Source: Petrotoga sp. 9PWA.NaAc.5.4
GTDB taxonomy: Bacteria; Thermotogota; Thermotogae; Petrotogales; Petrotogaceae
Direction of reading: 5' to 3'
DNA length: 64,000 bases
Assembly (NCBI RefSeq): GCF_002895485.1
Contig: NZ_AZRK01000001.1
Coordinates: 62,001 to 126,000 of the forward strand
How positions within the stretch are numbered: the first letter of the stretch is position 1; each line of letters starts with the position of its first letter. Shown piece by piece: positions 7,520 to 24,483 of this stretch. The position numbers and the translations under genes were made by a program. The notes beneath the pieces were generated by a model. The model was not told the origin of the DNA. It worked only from the letters and a program-made list of their open reading frames with translations, and did not search any database.

Positions 7520-9031
7520 ATGAATATTCAACCTGTTAACAAATTGTTTCAAGACCTACAAAAACTCCAGATACAAGCAAGTAAATTAGGATGGACACAA
7601 TATACCACTGGTTTTGATTTTGGTATTGATGAAGCTTACAGAAAAATTACAAGTTTCTTAGAAGATGAAAACAATTTTAATATAATTTGTGATTACAGAG
7701 AAAAGGAATTGGATCCAATTAACAAAAGAAAGTTAGAAATAGCCTATAACACTTTTGAACCTTATCATAAGAGAAAAGAGATAAATGAATTGAATCTGAA
7801 GATACACAAAAAAACGACAGAACTTTCAAAAATTTTAAATACTTTTAGATTTAAATATAACGGCAAAGAGATAACTTCTGTAGAAATAGATCAAATACTT
7901 AACAACGAAGAAAATAGAAATATAAGAAGGAAAGTTTATTTTATACGTAATCAAATAAATCTTGCTTTAATAGAAAATGGCTTCATAGAACTAATCGATT
8001 TAAGAAAAGAATTGGCAAAAGTTGATGGATCAAAAGATTTTATTGATTACATGCTTAAAAGAGAAGAACTAAACCCAAATATATTTGATAATTGGAAAGG
8101 TGAGTTAAGAGATCATATCCAATCCTTAAATAACAAGCGAATAGAATATGCTCAGAAATATTTAAAATCAGAAAAATTAGAACCTTGGGATGAAAGTTAC
8201 GTGAAAACTAAAATTTCACCATCATTAAGAACAAAAGTAGATATGTCAGAATATTACATTACTTTAAGAAACTTCTTCTCTAAGTTCGGATTTAATTTAG
8301 ACAATTTTAACATAGTCTACGACATTTTCCCAAGAAAATCGAAATCTGAGTGGGGATACAACTTCACAATAGAAAAAGGAAAAGACTCCAGAATTCTTGC
8401 CAACGTAAAAAATCAATACAACGAATACAGAACATTATTACATGAAAGTGGCCATGCAGTTCATTCATTTTTACAGGACCCTAACGAAACAATATTGAAT
8501 TTTGGGATAAGCGGAATAATAACCGAAGGCATAGCAAACCTATTTGGTGGTTTTATATATGATAAGCTTTTCTACGAAAACTTTTTTGAAAATAATGTTG
8601 AAGAAGAATTCAAAAATATTGAAGAATACGAAAAATTGAATTATATAAGATTTGTAGGGAATATCTTTTTTGATCATGAACTTTATAGAAACAACATTAA
8701 ATCATTAGAGGACATTTATACTCTCTACTTTAAAGTGCACTCAGAATTATTTGGAGATACACCTACTGTCGAAGAACCACCGTTCGGGTATAGAATTCAT
8801 TACACTACCCACCCAATATACATGCACAACTATTTTATGGGAGACGTTACTGCCGAAATGTTGAAAAAAGTTTTTTGCCAAAAGCAAAGCATAAAAAGTG
8901 TTTCCGAAAAACCTAAGGAATTTGGGGAATTTTTAATAAACGAGGTTATAAAGCCATCTGGCCTTTACAAATATGAAGACCTATTCAAAAGAATCAGCGG
9001 TGATAATTTTTCTGTGAAATGGTATTTTTAG
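7520..9031 (+). CDS. M3-family oligoendopeptidase
   Basis: A 503-residue zinc metallopeptidase of family M3. The zinc-binding motif HESGH (residues 308-312) sits in LLHESGHAVHSFL, with the third zinc ligand expected in the ITEGIANLFGG helix. The N-terminal two-thirds is helical and charged, as in thimet/oligoendopeptidase-F enzymes that cut short cytoplasmic peptides. At 503 aa it is shorter than PepF (about 600) and resembles compact M3 enzymes of thermophiles. It starts at ATG behind AGAGGAG. The leader at about 7440-7500 carries fragments reminiscent of the dispersed repeat. It is followed convergently by the epimerase gene. No signal peptide. Confidence 0.88.
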   Translation: MNIQPVNKLFQDLQKLQIQASKLGWTQYTTGFDFGIDEAYRKITSFLEDENNFNIICDYREKELDPINKRKLEIAYNTFEPYHKRKEINELNLKIHKKTTELSKILNTFRFKYNGKEITSVEIDQILNNEENRNIRRKVYFIRNQINLALIENGFIELIDLRKELAKVDGSKDFIDYMLKREELNPNIFDNWKGELRDHIQSLNNKRIEYAQKYLKSEKLEPWDESYVKTKISPSLRTKVDMSEYYITLRNFFSKFGFNLDNFNIVYDIFPRKSKSEWGYNFTIEKGKDSRILANVKNQYNEYRTLLHESGHAVHSFLQDPNETILNFGISGIITEGIANLFGGFIYDKLFYENFFENNVEEEFKNIEEYEKLNYIRFVGNIFFDHELYRNNIKSLEDIYTLYFKVHSELFGDTPTVEEPPFGYRIHYTTHPIYMHNYFMGDVTAEMLKKVFCQKQSIKSVSEKPKEFGEFLINEVIKPSGLYKYEDLFKRISGDNFSVKWYF

Positions 9032-11410: not shown

Positions 11411-12517
11411 TTAAACATATAAGTCAAGATGTTGTATTATTCCGACTCCACCATATTCTTTCAAAAATATGCCCGTATTTCTAATAACGCCAAGAACATC
11501 ATCTATAGATCTTTTTATTGAAAATTCAGAACTAACACTACCTAAATAAATTGCTCCAATCTCTTTATCTTTCAGAGACAATAATACATCTTCTCCTTCG
11601 ATGGTTTTCACCCACAACTTCAAATCATTGAAAATACTGTCATTTTCATCTATCCATCCATTTTTGTCCTCATCGTATTTAGCTAATTCTTCAAATCCAT
11701 TACCAGTTTGAGGTCCAAATAATTCCTTTCCATCATTGATCTTTCCATCACTATTCTTATCTAATACCAAAAACCCACTGCCCTTCCCAACAAAATTGAT
11801 TAACTCGTTAATACCATCTGCATTAAGATCAAAATCAAATTTTCTTTCTGTTAATTCTGCTGCAGTACCCTCAAAATTAATAACTAAAGGATCCACCGCA
11901 TCCCCCATTCTAAGACTAAACAATTCTTTTTCTAACATACTTCTTTCCATTAAAAGAGAAATAGCAATATTTATTTCTTTTCCATCAGAAGTTTTTACTA
12001 TTCCTATCGCAGAATATTCTACTTTTTCGTATTCCAACCTTTCAATCAAAGAATCATATTCAAGTCCCCAACTATACCCCTGAGCTTGAGGCTGATCTTT
12101 TTTGAAAAACTGTTTTTTAATTTCAGATGCCTTAGCCTCTATACTTTCAATACTCTTCTTAAGTTTTTCCATATCTTTTATAAACGAGAAATTTATCTTT
12201 TTACCGGTCAATTTTTCAAGCATTTGTTGTAACAATTTGAGCTTTAACTTTTCTTTAGCATCTATATCTATTTCATCAAGATCTATTTCTTCAACATGTT
12301 TACCATCTACTTGCTTATACATACTTTTCATATCTTCTATAAGAACTTTTATATCGTTTTTAAGTTTCTGCCTAATTTTTTGCAGATCCACTTTATTCTC
12401 ATTTTCTTGTTGTTGTGGTCTTTCCCCTCTCCAATACAGCAGCTTTTCCTCTTTTGTTTGTTTCGAGAAAAACAAACGATTTGCATTCATTTGTATATCA
12501 TAGTTTTCTATTTTCAA
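11411..12517 (-). CDS. Uncharacterized protein with EF-hand-like calcium loops
   Basis: A 368-residue protein with no signal peptide or membrane segment. Residues 20-150 are lysine- and glutamate-rich and predicted coiled coil or helical. In the C-terminal half two calcium-binding-like loops stand out: DKNSDGKINDGKELF and DEDKNGWIDENDSIF, around residues 255-295, with the intervening ELFGPQTGNGFEEL. This loop pair with the FGxxTGxGFxEL spacer is known from uncharacterised bacterial proteins and from RTX-type C-termini. The function is unknown. The start is TTG 12517 after AGAGAGGCG. It is monocistronic, preceded by a full repeat copy in the same orientation and followed by its own terminator. 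Calcium binding is an inference. Confidence 0.75.
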   Translation of the reverse strand: MKIENYDIQMNANRLFFSKQTKEEKLLYWRGERPQQQENENKVDLQKIRQKLKNDIKVLIEDMKSMYKQVDGKHVEEIDLDEIDIDAKEKLKLKLLQQMLEKLTGKKINFSFIKDMEKLKKSIESIEAKASEIKKQFFKKDQPQAQGYSWGLEYDSLIERLEYEKVEYSAIGIVKTSDGKEINIAISLLMERSMLEKELFSLRMGDAVDPLVINFEGTAAELTERKFDFDLNADGINELINFVGKGSGFLVLDKNSDGKINDGKELFGPQTGNGFEELAKYDEDKNGWIDENDSIFNDLKLWVKTIEGEDVLLSLKDKEIGAIYLGSVSSEFSIKRSIDDVLGVIRNTGIFLKEYGGVGIIQHLDLYV

Positions 12518-12549
12518 AATTATCGCCTCTCTTTTCTATTAAAAAACTC

Positions 12550-12757
12550 ACTTTAGAAATTTTAAAACTCAAAGTATATAAATGTTTTGAATTTTAATTT
12601 TTTTAGAATACCTCTATAGTTATAATTCTTACTAACTATGAATTTTTCTAATGTGTTCGCTACTTGCTCTACTTGTAGCAGAGAAGAGCAGCGGGGCTCC
12701 GCCCTGGACCCGTTATAAATTCAAAAGCTAATTTTTAAAAAAATCTCATCTCTAAAT
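12550..12757 (-). repeat. Dispersed leader repeat, full copy
   Basis: Starts ACTTTAGAAATT at 12550-12561 and ends with a worn terminal repeat, ATCTCTAAATT. It carries the GGGGCTCCGCCC core. The palindrome is interrupted by a duplicated segment (CTACTTGCTCTACTTGTAG). It points toward the EF-hand-like gene, 33 bases upstream of its start. Confidence 0.8.
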
Positions 12758-12859
12758 TGCTTACTATTAAAATATCGTCTAAAAAAAGATATAGATTAAT
12801 CATTTTCTTAAAAAAGATTTATCAATGTTGTTTCATTATATTTAACTTTTTAAAAAAGC

Positions 12860-12888
12860 TTGACATTTGTAATTTTTTATGATAAAAT
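12860..12888 (+). promoter_or_regulatory. Promoter of candidate small RNA
   Basis: TTGACA (12860-12865), a 17-base spacer and TAAAAT (12883-12888). The -35 is perfect consensus and the next coding start is 240 bases away, so the transcript begins in non-coding sequence near 12895. Confidence 0.75.
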
Positions 12889-12894
12889 TTTATT

Positions 12895-13010
12895 AAGTAA
12901 GTAAAAGTTATCAGATACAATAATCGTATTGTAAACCTCCTTTCTATTTTTGCAGGATTGTCAGGTGTCAATACATGGGAGACGCATAAGTGTGCGTCTC
13001 TTATTTTTAG
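12895..13010 (+). ncRNA. Candidate small RNA or leader RNA with anti-Shine-Dalgarno
   Basis: An interval of about 114 bases bounded by a consensus promoter and an intrinsic terminator (GAGACGCA / TGCGTCTC stem at 12979-13000, then TTATTTTT), with no open frame. It contains ACCTCCTTTCTA (12935-12946), the same sequence as the conserved 3' tail of bacterial 16S rRNA, so it could base-pair with strong ribosome-binding sites. GTATTG (12926-12931) can pair either with CAATA just before it or with CAATAC at 12969-12974, a switch-like arrangement. It could be a trans-acting RNA or an attenuator leader for the aldo/keto reductase and sugar kinase genes 120 bases further on. It matches no RNA family I recognise. 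Confidence 0.5.
12979..13008 (+). terminator. Intrinsic terminator of candidate small RNA
   Basis: 8-bp perfect stem GAGACGCA / TGCGTCTC with a six-base loop, followed by TTATTTTT. Confidence 0.85.
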
Positions 13011-13130
13011 TAAATATTTTAGATCGATACTTTTATTGAATATAAGTAATAAACAGCTTAAAAGGTTCCGCTCACAAAAATATATTTTAAAATTTTAAAG
13101 GTTCCTAAATTTAAAAAGCGAGGCTAAATC

Positions 13131-14027
13131 ATGAGAATAAACGTCTCTAACAGTGGGTTAGAATTTTCAAGAATAGTTCAAGGAATGATGAGATTAAAAC
13201 AATGGGATTTTTCAACTAAAGAAGCAGAAAACTTCCTTCTCAAAGCGATAGATTTGGGAGTAACAACTTTTGATCACGCAGATATATACGGAAATTATAC
13301 TTGTGAATCTCTATTCGGCGAAGTTTTAAAAATAAATCCTTCTTTAAGAAACAAAATACAAATTGTTACAAAAACTGGCATTATCCTTCCTGATAAAGAG
13401 AAAAAAAGAATTCATTATTATGATACAACAAAATCTCATATATTAGAATCTGTAGATAGATCTTTGAATAATTTGCATACCGATCATATAGATTTACTTT
13501 TGATACATCGTCCCGATCCTTTAATGGACCCCACCGAAATTGTTGAAGCCTTTTTAGAATTATACAAACAAGGAAAAGTACTATACTTCGGTGTATCAAA
13601 TTTTACTATGCAACAGTTCAACACATTACAATCAAAATTTAGCCTTTCACTTGTAACAAACCAGATAGAACTCTCTCCTTACAATTTAGATCATATTCAA
13701 AATGATAATACCTACTTTTTATTGGAAAAAAATATTAATCCAATGATCTGGTCTCCCTTAGCGGGAGGAAAAATATTTGATGCTTCAAACGAAAAAAGCG
13801 TGAAGATATTATCTGCCTTGAAAGAGGTGTCTTCTGAGATGAATGTAGTTGAAATTGATACGGTGATATATGCGTGGTTATTGAATCATCCTATGGGAGC
13901 TATTCCAATATCTGGAAGTGGGAAAATAGAAAGGCTTAAAAACGCTGTTAATGCTTTAAATATAAAAATGCCAAGAGAACTATGGTTCAAAATATATGAA
14001 GCTGCCTTGGGACACGATGTTCCATAA
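13131..14027 (+). CDS. Aldo/keto reductase
   Basis: A 298-residue (alpha/beta)8 NADPH-dependent oxidoreductase. The catalytic tetrad is visible: Asp and Tyr in DHADIYGNY near residues 48-56, Lys in VTKTG near residue 83, and His in LLLIHRPD. The NADP-binding end SPLAGGK and ISGSGKIERLKNAV is at the C-terminus. The DHADIYG variant and the length suit the YdhF group of oxidoreductases. It is followed 36 bases on by a PfkB-family kinase, so the pair may handle a sugar or polyol, but the substrate is unknown. It follows the small RNA terminator and has only a weak ribosome-binding site (GCGAGG). Confidence 0.9.
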   Translation: MRINVSNSGLEFSRIVQGMMRLKQWDFSTKEAENFLLKAIDLGVTTFDHADIYGNYTCESLFGEVLKINPSLRNKIQIVTKTGIILPDKEKKRIHYYDTTKSHILESVDRSLNNLHTDHIDLLLIHRPDPLMDPTEIVEAFLELYKQGKVLYFGVSNFTMQQFNTLQSKFSLSLVTNQIELSPYNLDHIQNDNTYFLLEKNINPMIWSPLAGGKIFDASNEKSVKILSALKEVSSEMNVVEIDTVIYAWLLNHPMGAIPISGSGKIERLKNAVNALNIKMPRELWFKIYEAALGHDVP

Positions 14028-14072
14028 ATCATATTAAAAAACAAAAAATTAATTTAAGAAAGGATGAATTGC

Positions 14073-15014
14073 ATGATATTCACTATTACTGTCAATCCAT
14101 GTTTAGATAGATATCTTTACATTGATAAACTATTATTAGAAGATACGACACGTGTAAAAGTCACAAAAGATTATCCTGCAGGTAAAGGTATCGATGTTTC
14201 AAGGGTAATTAAAGAACTTGATGGAAATTCTGTGGCTATCTCTTTTTTAGGGGGAGATAATGGAAGAAAAATAGAAGAAATGTTAGATAAAGAAGGAGTA
14301 ATATATACAGCTGTTAGAACCACAAAAGAAACAAGAATGAATACTATCCTGCAAGAGAAAAAGGTTCAGTATAGGTTAAGTCTACCCGGACCAAAAATTT
14401 CTAAATCCGATTTAAATCAATTATATGAAACATTAAAACTTTTAATTCGTGATAATGATACAGTTGTTATATCAGGAAGTTTGCCTCAAGGGGTACCCAC
14501 GACTTTTTACGCGGATCTTATTTCATTTTTAAAAACAAAAAATACATTAATTTATTTCGATTCAGATGGAGATAATTTGAAAACAGGAATTGCCTCATCT
14601 CCTGATTGCATTAAACCAAATTTGTATGAGTTTCAAAGGATCTTAGAGAAAAATATAGATGCAAATAATAAGAAAAAACTTTCCGAATATGGTATAAAAA
14701 TTATTGAAAAATATGGTCTCAAAGAAATTTTGTTAACGTTAGGATCTCAAGGAGCTTTGCTTATTTCAAAAGAAATCGTATTATATGCTTCTTCTGTTCA
14801 AGTCCCTGTTAAGAGTGCTGTTGGATCAGGAGACTCATTTCTTGCTGCATATGTTCTTAAAAGAGAACAAGGAGCATCAATTGAAGAAGCTTTTAAATGG
14901 GCTAATGCTTCAGGAAATGCTTCAGTCATGACTCCAGGAACAGAATTATGCCATAAAAAAGATGTATTAAAACTTTTGGAGAAAGTTCATGTTGAGAATT
15001 TAGGAATTTACTAA
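14073..15014 (+). CDS. PfkB-family sugar-phosphate kinase (FruK/LacC-like)
   Basis: A 313-residue ribokinase-fold kinase. The N-terminal TVNPCLDRYL and the sugar-binding GKGIDVSRVIKELDG correspond to the LacC/FruK/PfkB subgroup that phosphorylates fructose 1-phosphate, tagatose 6-phosphate or fructose 6-phosphate. The second signature, VGSGDSFLAAYVL (near residue 250), holds the catalytic aspartate and anion hole. ATG 14073 is chosen because GAAAGGA is 8 bases upstream; the ATG at 14064 lies within that site. There is no adjacent PTS gene, so the substrate is open. It likely shares a transcript with the aldo/keto reductase. Confidence 0.85.
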   Translation: MIFTITVNPCLDRYLYIDKLLLEDTTRVKVTKDYPAGKGIDVSRVIKELDGNSVAISFLGGDNGRKIEEMLDKEGVIYTAVRTTKETRMNTILQEKKVQYRLSLPGPKISKSDLNQLYETLKLLIRDNDTVVISGSLPQGVPTTFYADLISFLKTKNTLIYFDSDGDNLKTGIASSPDCIKPNLYEFQRILEKNIDANNKKKLSEYGIKIIEKYGLKEILLTLGSQGALLISKEIVLYASSVQVPVKSAVGSGDSFLAAYVLKREQGASIEEAFKWANASGNASVMTPGTELCHKKDVLKLLEKVHVENLGIY

Positions 15015-24294: not shown

Positions 24295-24297
24295 TTA

Positions 24298-24397
24298 ATG
24301 ACACCTTGCAGCCTCCCTTCGCCGGCATTACCCGGATCAGGTTCCTGGGGTCGATGCCTTCAAAAGACATCCTCTCAGCCTTAGAGCTCCCCCGGCC
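24298..24397 (-). promoter_or_regulatory. TPP (thiamine) riboswitch
   Basis: The minus strand reads GCCGGGGGAGCTC, then GGCTGAGAGGATG, an arm closing with ACCCC, GAACCTGATCCGGGTAATGC and CGGCGAAGGGAGGC. These are the conserved THI-element blocks in the correct order: the CTGAGA pyrimidine-sensing arm and the GAACCTGATC...GGTAATGCC pyrophosphate arm. Binding thiamine pyrophosphate should favour the terminator immediately downstream and shut off the ThiB-ThiP operon. Confidence 0.96.
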
Positions 24398-24483
24398 TAA
24401 CAAATATTCAATTTACAAAATAATTATAACATATTTTATTTAAAAATGCTATAATTATTTCAAAAAAATTTACGGGTGAAAAA

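Follow-up and report, generated by a model that had tools for sequence, protein, structure and literature searches.

The window, by which we mean the whole stretch of 64,000 nucleotides analysed, contains an intergenic unit between a gene at 11411-12517 and genes for an aldo/keto reductase and a sugar kinase (13131-15014). These two lie on the same strand as the unit, and the first of them begins about 120 bases downstream. The product of the left-hand gene is of unknown family, has no Pfam match and holds DLNADG- and DKNSDGK-type motifs. Elsewhere in the window, a TPP riboswitch was found at 24297-24403 on the minus strand (68.3 bits). The features of the intergenic unit are collected in Table 1.

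Table 1. Predicted features of the intergenic unit, in window coordinates
Feature	Position	Strand	Basis
Sigma-70 type promoter: TTGACA from 12860, 17-base spacer, TAAAAT to 12888; extended -10 (TGA before the hexamer)	12860..12888	+	consensus match
Predicted small RNA, ~115 nt	12895..13009	+	promoter and terminator, no convincing ORF
Local hairpin TACAATA-ATCG-TATTGTA, one of two alternative stems	12916..12933	+	weak, -3.9 kcal/mol
ACCTCCTTTCTA, same as the 3′ end of 16S rRNA (anti-Shine-Dalgarno); proposed seed for pairing	12935..12946	+	
CAATAC, pairs at long range with GTATTG 12926-12931 to form the other alternative stem	12969..12974	+	folding
Intrinsic terminator, 13-bp stem and U-rich tail	12975..13009 (about)	+	terminator scan, folding

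An earlier sequence-only reading had proposed that a promoter and an intrinsic terminator enclose about 114 non-coding bases at this place. Both elements were found where it had put them, and they bound about 115 bases with no good ORF. The promoter matches the consensus at 11 of 12 positions and has TG ahead of its -10 box, whose position would put the start of the RNA near 12895. On both strands of the window, seven promoter-like sites with 11 or 12 matches were observed, this one included. The terminator stem consists of 13 pairs (12975-13004) followed by a T-rich tail. Two terminator-like sites were observed in the 700 bases scanned, compared with 0.2 expected. No convincing gene or ORF was found between promoter and terminator; the small ORFs of the region are TTG-start frames of 29-49 aa without a well-placed Shine-Dalgarno (SD) sequence.

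We scanned the non-coding DNA of the same genome for promoter-terminator units, covering about 1.17 Mb of the 2.2-Mb assembly, taken in stretches. The scan returned 15 distinct units. About half of these are tRNA genes, recognised by reading the sequences, which indicates that the scan recovers real RNA genes. The unit at 12860-13009 is among the few orphan units. When it was searched against Rfam at E up to 10, only sub-threshold scores were obtained and none reached a gathering cut-off.

Bases 12935-12946 had been described as equal to the 3′ end of 16S rRNA, and this is correct. The 16S genes of relatives terminate in ...GGATCACCTCCTTTCTAAGGAG, which ACCTCCTTTCTA matches exactly over 12 bases; the comparison rests on the relatives' genes, the source assembly itself seeming to be without a 16S 3′ end. 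Exact copies of ACCTCCTTTCTA were counted in the 2.2-Mb assembly. The pattern occurs once, at this site, and the same pattern written backwards, used as a control, occurs twice, so taken by itself the 12-mer match has no genome-wide significance. We also sampled about 3,200 pieces of 118 bases from the window. In the others the match to the 16S tail spans 10 bases at most, against 12 bases here, the longest. From base frequencies we estimate a chance of about 2% that CCTCC occurs in roughly 100 bases of such composition. In the folding model, CCUCC is unpaired for a fraction of about 34% at 37°C and 51-55% at 55-60°C, and the ACCU end of the anti-SD is mostly paired at 37°C.

The RNA from 12895 to 13012 folds with -28.2 kcal/mol (z = -2.9). 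Without the terminator, the remaining body (the 80 bases preceding it) has z = -0.25, like shuffled sequences. The folding excess thus stems from the terminator. The sequence-only reading had also given GTATTG at 12926-12931 two mutually exclusive partners. Both stems exist, but the segment that they have in common is TATTG rather than the whole of GTATTG. Of the shuffles, 2.6% contain two overlapping 6-bp stems of this kind, as do 6.3% of pieces taken at random from the window. At 37°C the two states are about 1.3 kcal/mol apart. With a body that folds like shuffles, stems that arise at these rates by chance and so small an energy difference, a switch that hides or exposes the anti-SD is not supported.

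For conservation we used 20 other genomes of the family, in which the genus is represented by the source genome alone. BLAST with the RNA body detected no homologue in these genomes (best E = 0.02). A single-sequence covariance model scored 157.7 bits on the RNA itself and found nothing else above 25 bits. The matches from both searches were only promoter-like, terminator-like or otherwise due to chance. The promoter is the sole part of the unit with matches in relatives, as expected of a consensus promoter. The sequence-only reading had itself named a lack of conservation of the anti-SD and stems in close relatives as an outcome that would refute it, and this is the outcome for the 20 genomes. 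Since no homologue was found in them, the comparison lends no evolutionary support to a function. When 84,980 genomes were scanned for the exact 19-mer, five unrelated organisms matched, which we took as chance, and no exact 19-mer was found in viral contigs, phages or plasmids.

The left-hand gene has an orthologue of 89% identity in the nearest relative (G008). The DNA upstream of this orthologue matches the window to about 12820-12840 and diverges just before the promoter. Past the divergence point, the next gene in the relative is the orthologue of an M3-type peptidase gene at window 7520-9031. The RNA therefore lies at a rearranged junction, and it was either gained in the source lineage or lost in the others. 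The peptidase gene and the divergent gene at 11411-12517 are neighbours in the relative, whereas in the window a distance of 2.4 kb, occupied by other genes, separates them. Window 12510-12605 matches, in inverted orientation, the DNA upstream of the relative's peptidase gene, and may be partly dispersed repeat.

A dispersed repeat of about 210 bp has a copy at window 12546-12756, just upstream of the RNA unit and not overlapping it. The repeat was found at 260 places in 1.17 Mb of the source genome, with 46 matches of at least 180 bases. Other copies in the window include those at 1845, 23931, 44431 and 61906, and the right-hand part (12694-12756) recurs alone. The repeat is abundant also in the two g4 genomes and rarer in g3.

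Pairing energies of the C-rich core were calculated for 916 predicted translation starts. The mean was -15.8 kcal/mol at the starts versus -11.4 kcal/mol at coding controls. Stronger pairing with translation starts is what any anti-SD sequence would give. The best predicted target has -29.7 kcal/mol, and shuffled flanks give -29.6 ± 2.1 kcal/mol. Because the best energy is no better than that of shuffled flanks, no specific target stands out as an outlier. A search of the genome for extended complementary sites (19-mer, up to 3 mismatches) returned only the RNA itself. The same genome encodes Hfq.

The explanation that we favour, with a probability of about one half, is that the unit is the gene of a free-standing small RNA of ~115 nt, restricted to this lineage and predicted to pair with SD regions. 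RNA polymerase would start near 12895, and the terminator would stop it near 13009. At the temperatures at which these thermophiles grow, the C-rich stretch AACCUCCUUUCUA would be single-stranded in part. It would then pair with the SD region of one or a few mRNAs and block ribosome binding, possibly with the assistance of Hfq. Transcription of the RNA, its action by base pairing and its targets are what we infer here. The earlier suggestion of a translational regulator that pairs with GGAGG-type sites stands in part. A stand-alone transcript is plausible from the promoter, the terminator, the lack of a good ORF and the presence of Hfq, but the prediction gives no outlier target and no homologue was found in the 20 genomes.

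The main rival to an SD-pairing small RNA is a young RNA that is transcribed yet functionless. Here a promoter and a terminator would have come together in rearranged DNA between genes, and the match of the CCUCC stretch would be due to chance. We regard this as a real possibility, though short of probable. It agrees with the lack of a homologue in any of the 20 relatives compared, with the end of synteny at about 12820-12840, with a body fold that resembles shuffled sequence and with the failure of any target to stand out. One exact 12-mer per genome is also near the chance rate. However, chance is unlikely to preserve an 11/12 promoter that has an extended -10 and stands in register with a strong terminator, and CCTCC itself would be an event of about 2% in a sequence of this length.

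The sequence-only reading had considered a leader of the following sugar genes or a new riboswitch-like RNA. In that case the unit would serve the downstream reductase and kinase genes as 5′ leader or attenuator, and its alternative stems would control the terminator. The strand and spacing of the genes fit this explanation, and the stem can be drawn in two ways. However, the terminator stem is formed in both modelled states, which show no mutually exclusive terminator and antiterminator, so the proposed switch would not control termination. Orthologues of the reductase (60-79% identity) occur in 16 other genomes, none with such an RNA upstream. No conserved aptamer was found upstream of the orthologous genes, the body has the z score of shuffles and Rfam gave no match at gathering score. 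Both proposals are improbable on these grounds.

It is still harder to assign the motif to the minus strand, where TAGAAAGGAGGT is a perfect SD that would serve a small ORF and is followed by a TTG codon and an open frame. However, no ATG, GTG or TTG lies at the usual spacing of 5-9 bases, and the 49-aa ORF (12822-12971) begins upstream of the SD. The sole nearby minus-strand promoter-like site is weak (9/12) and located downstream, and this reading would not account for the promoter and terminator of the plus strand. We therefore consider it very unlikely. Least credible is a global effect. Here a lineage-specific exact copy of the 16S tail would compete with ribosomes for SD sites and so dampen translation broadly, with heat opening the RNA because less of the anti-SD is paired at 55-60°C. 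The 12-base identity fits this, as does the generic pairing, for which 84% of translation starts have predicted energies better than -12 kcal/mol. Very high abundance would be needed, however, and the core is half paired and not conserved.

The 1.17-Mb scan returned one other orphan unit with CCUCC, G000:C43:68651-68755 on the minus strand, of about 100 nt. This RNA is conserved in 12 of the 21 family genomes (loci L182-L193, L200-L211). It has a CCCUCCCUCC loop followed by UCUGUCCCCGGAA, and TACCCTCCCTC and TCTGTCCCCGGAA are invariant. Its promoter and terminator are conserved, and its hairpin shows some pair-keeping changes. No Rfam family matched it at its gathering score. Its neighbours in the source genome and in G012 are an alkaline-phosphatase-like gene on one side and a methyltransferase-like gene in convergent orientation on the other, both named from reading the sequences, and the copy in G005 likewise follows a phosphatase-like gene. 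It shares the genome and the promoter/CCUCC/terminator layout with the window RNA but has no sequence similarity to it. From this sequence comparison, it is a strong candidate for a new small RNA family and a better lead than the window RNA on SD-pairing small RNAs in the phylum. Because it was recovered in 12 of 21 genomes, the search is able to detect a conserved C-rich RNA, and the same methods would probably have found the window RNA if it were conserved to a like degree.

Literature searches on Petrotoga and Thermotoga small RNAs returned no relevant report, and no description of a Petrotoga small RNA was found in them. C-rich small RNAs that pair with SD sequences are established elsewhere, as NfeR1 (PMC10746234) and as IsrR and FsrA (PMC9410917). 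NfeR1 (alpha-r14, one of the cuckoo RNAs of rhizobia) is about 120 nt long, and its anti-SD seed pairs with a translation initiation region (PMC10746234). It forms three hairpins that each carry CCUCCUCCC where they are unpaired. It is also widely conserved, and it acts independently of Hfq. The window RNA is similar in length and has an anti-SD stretch, but it carries one ACCUCCUUUCUA, has no CCUCCUCCC hairpins and no homologue. Membership of the alpha-r14/NfeR1 family was rejected for lack of the three hairpins. The C-rich small RNAs of Firmicutes (IsrR, FsrA, RsaE/RoxS) direct a C-rich stretch against SD sequences, in an AT-rich genome and with an intrinsic terminator (PMC9410917). By its sequence, the predicted window RNA resembles them in all three respects; unlike them, its C-rich stretch is partly paired in the folding model, and the Rfam search showed no family-level similarity. 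If the RNA is real, it would mean that SD-pairing small RNAs are arising recently in this phylum. Provided that the transcript is confirmed, it would be a new example of a known functional kind, and any action it has would follow that of NfeR1 and of the C-rich Firmicutes RNAs.
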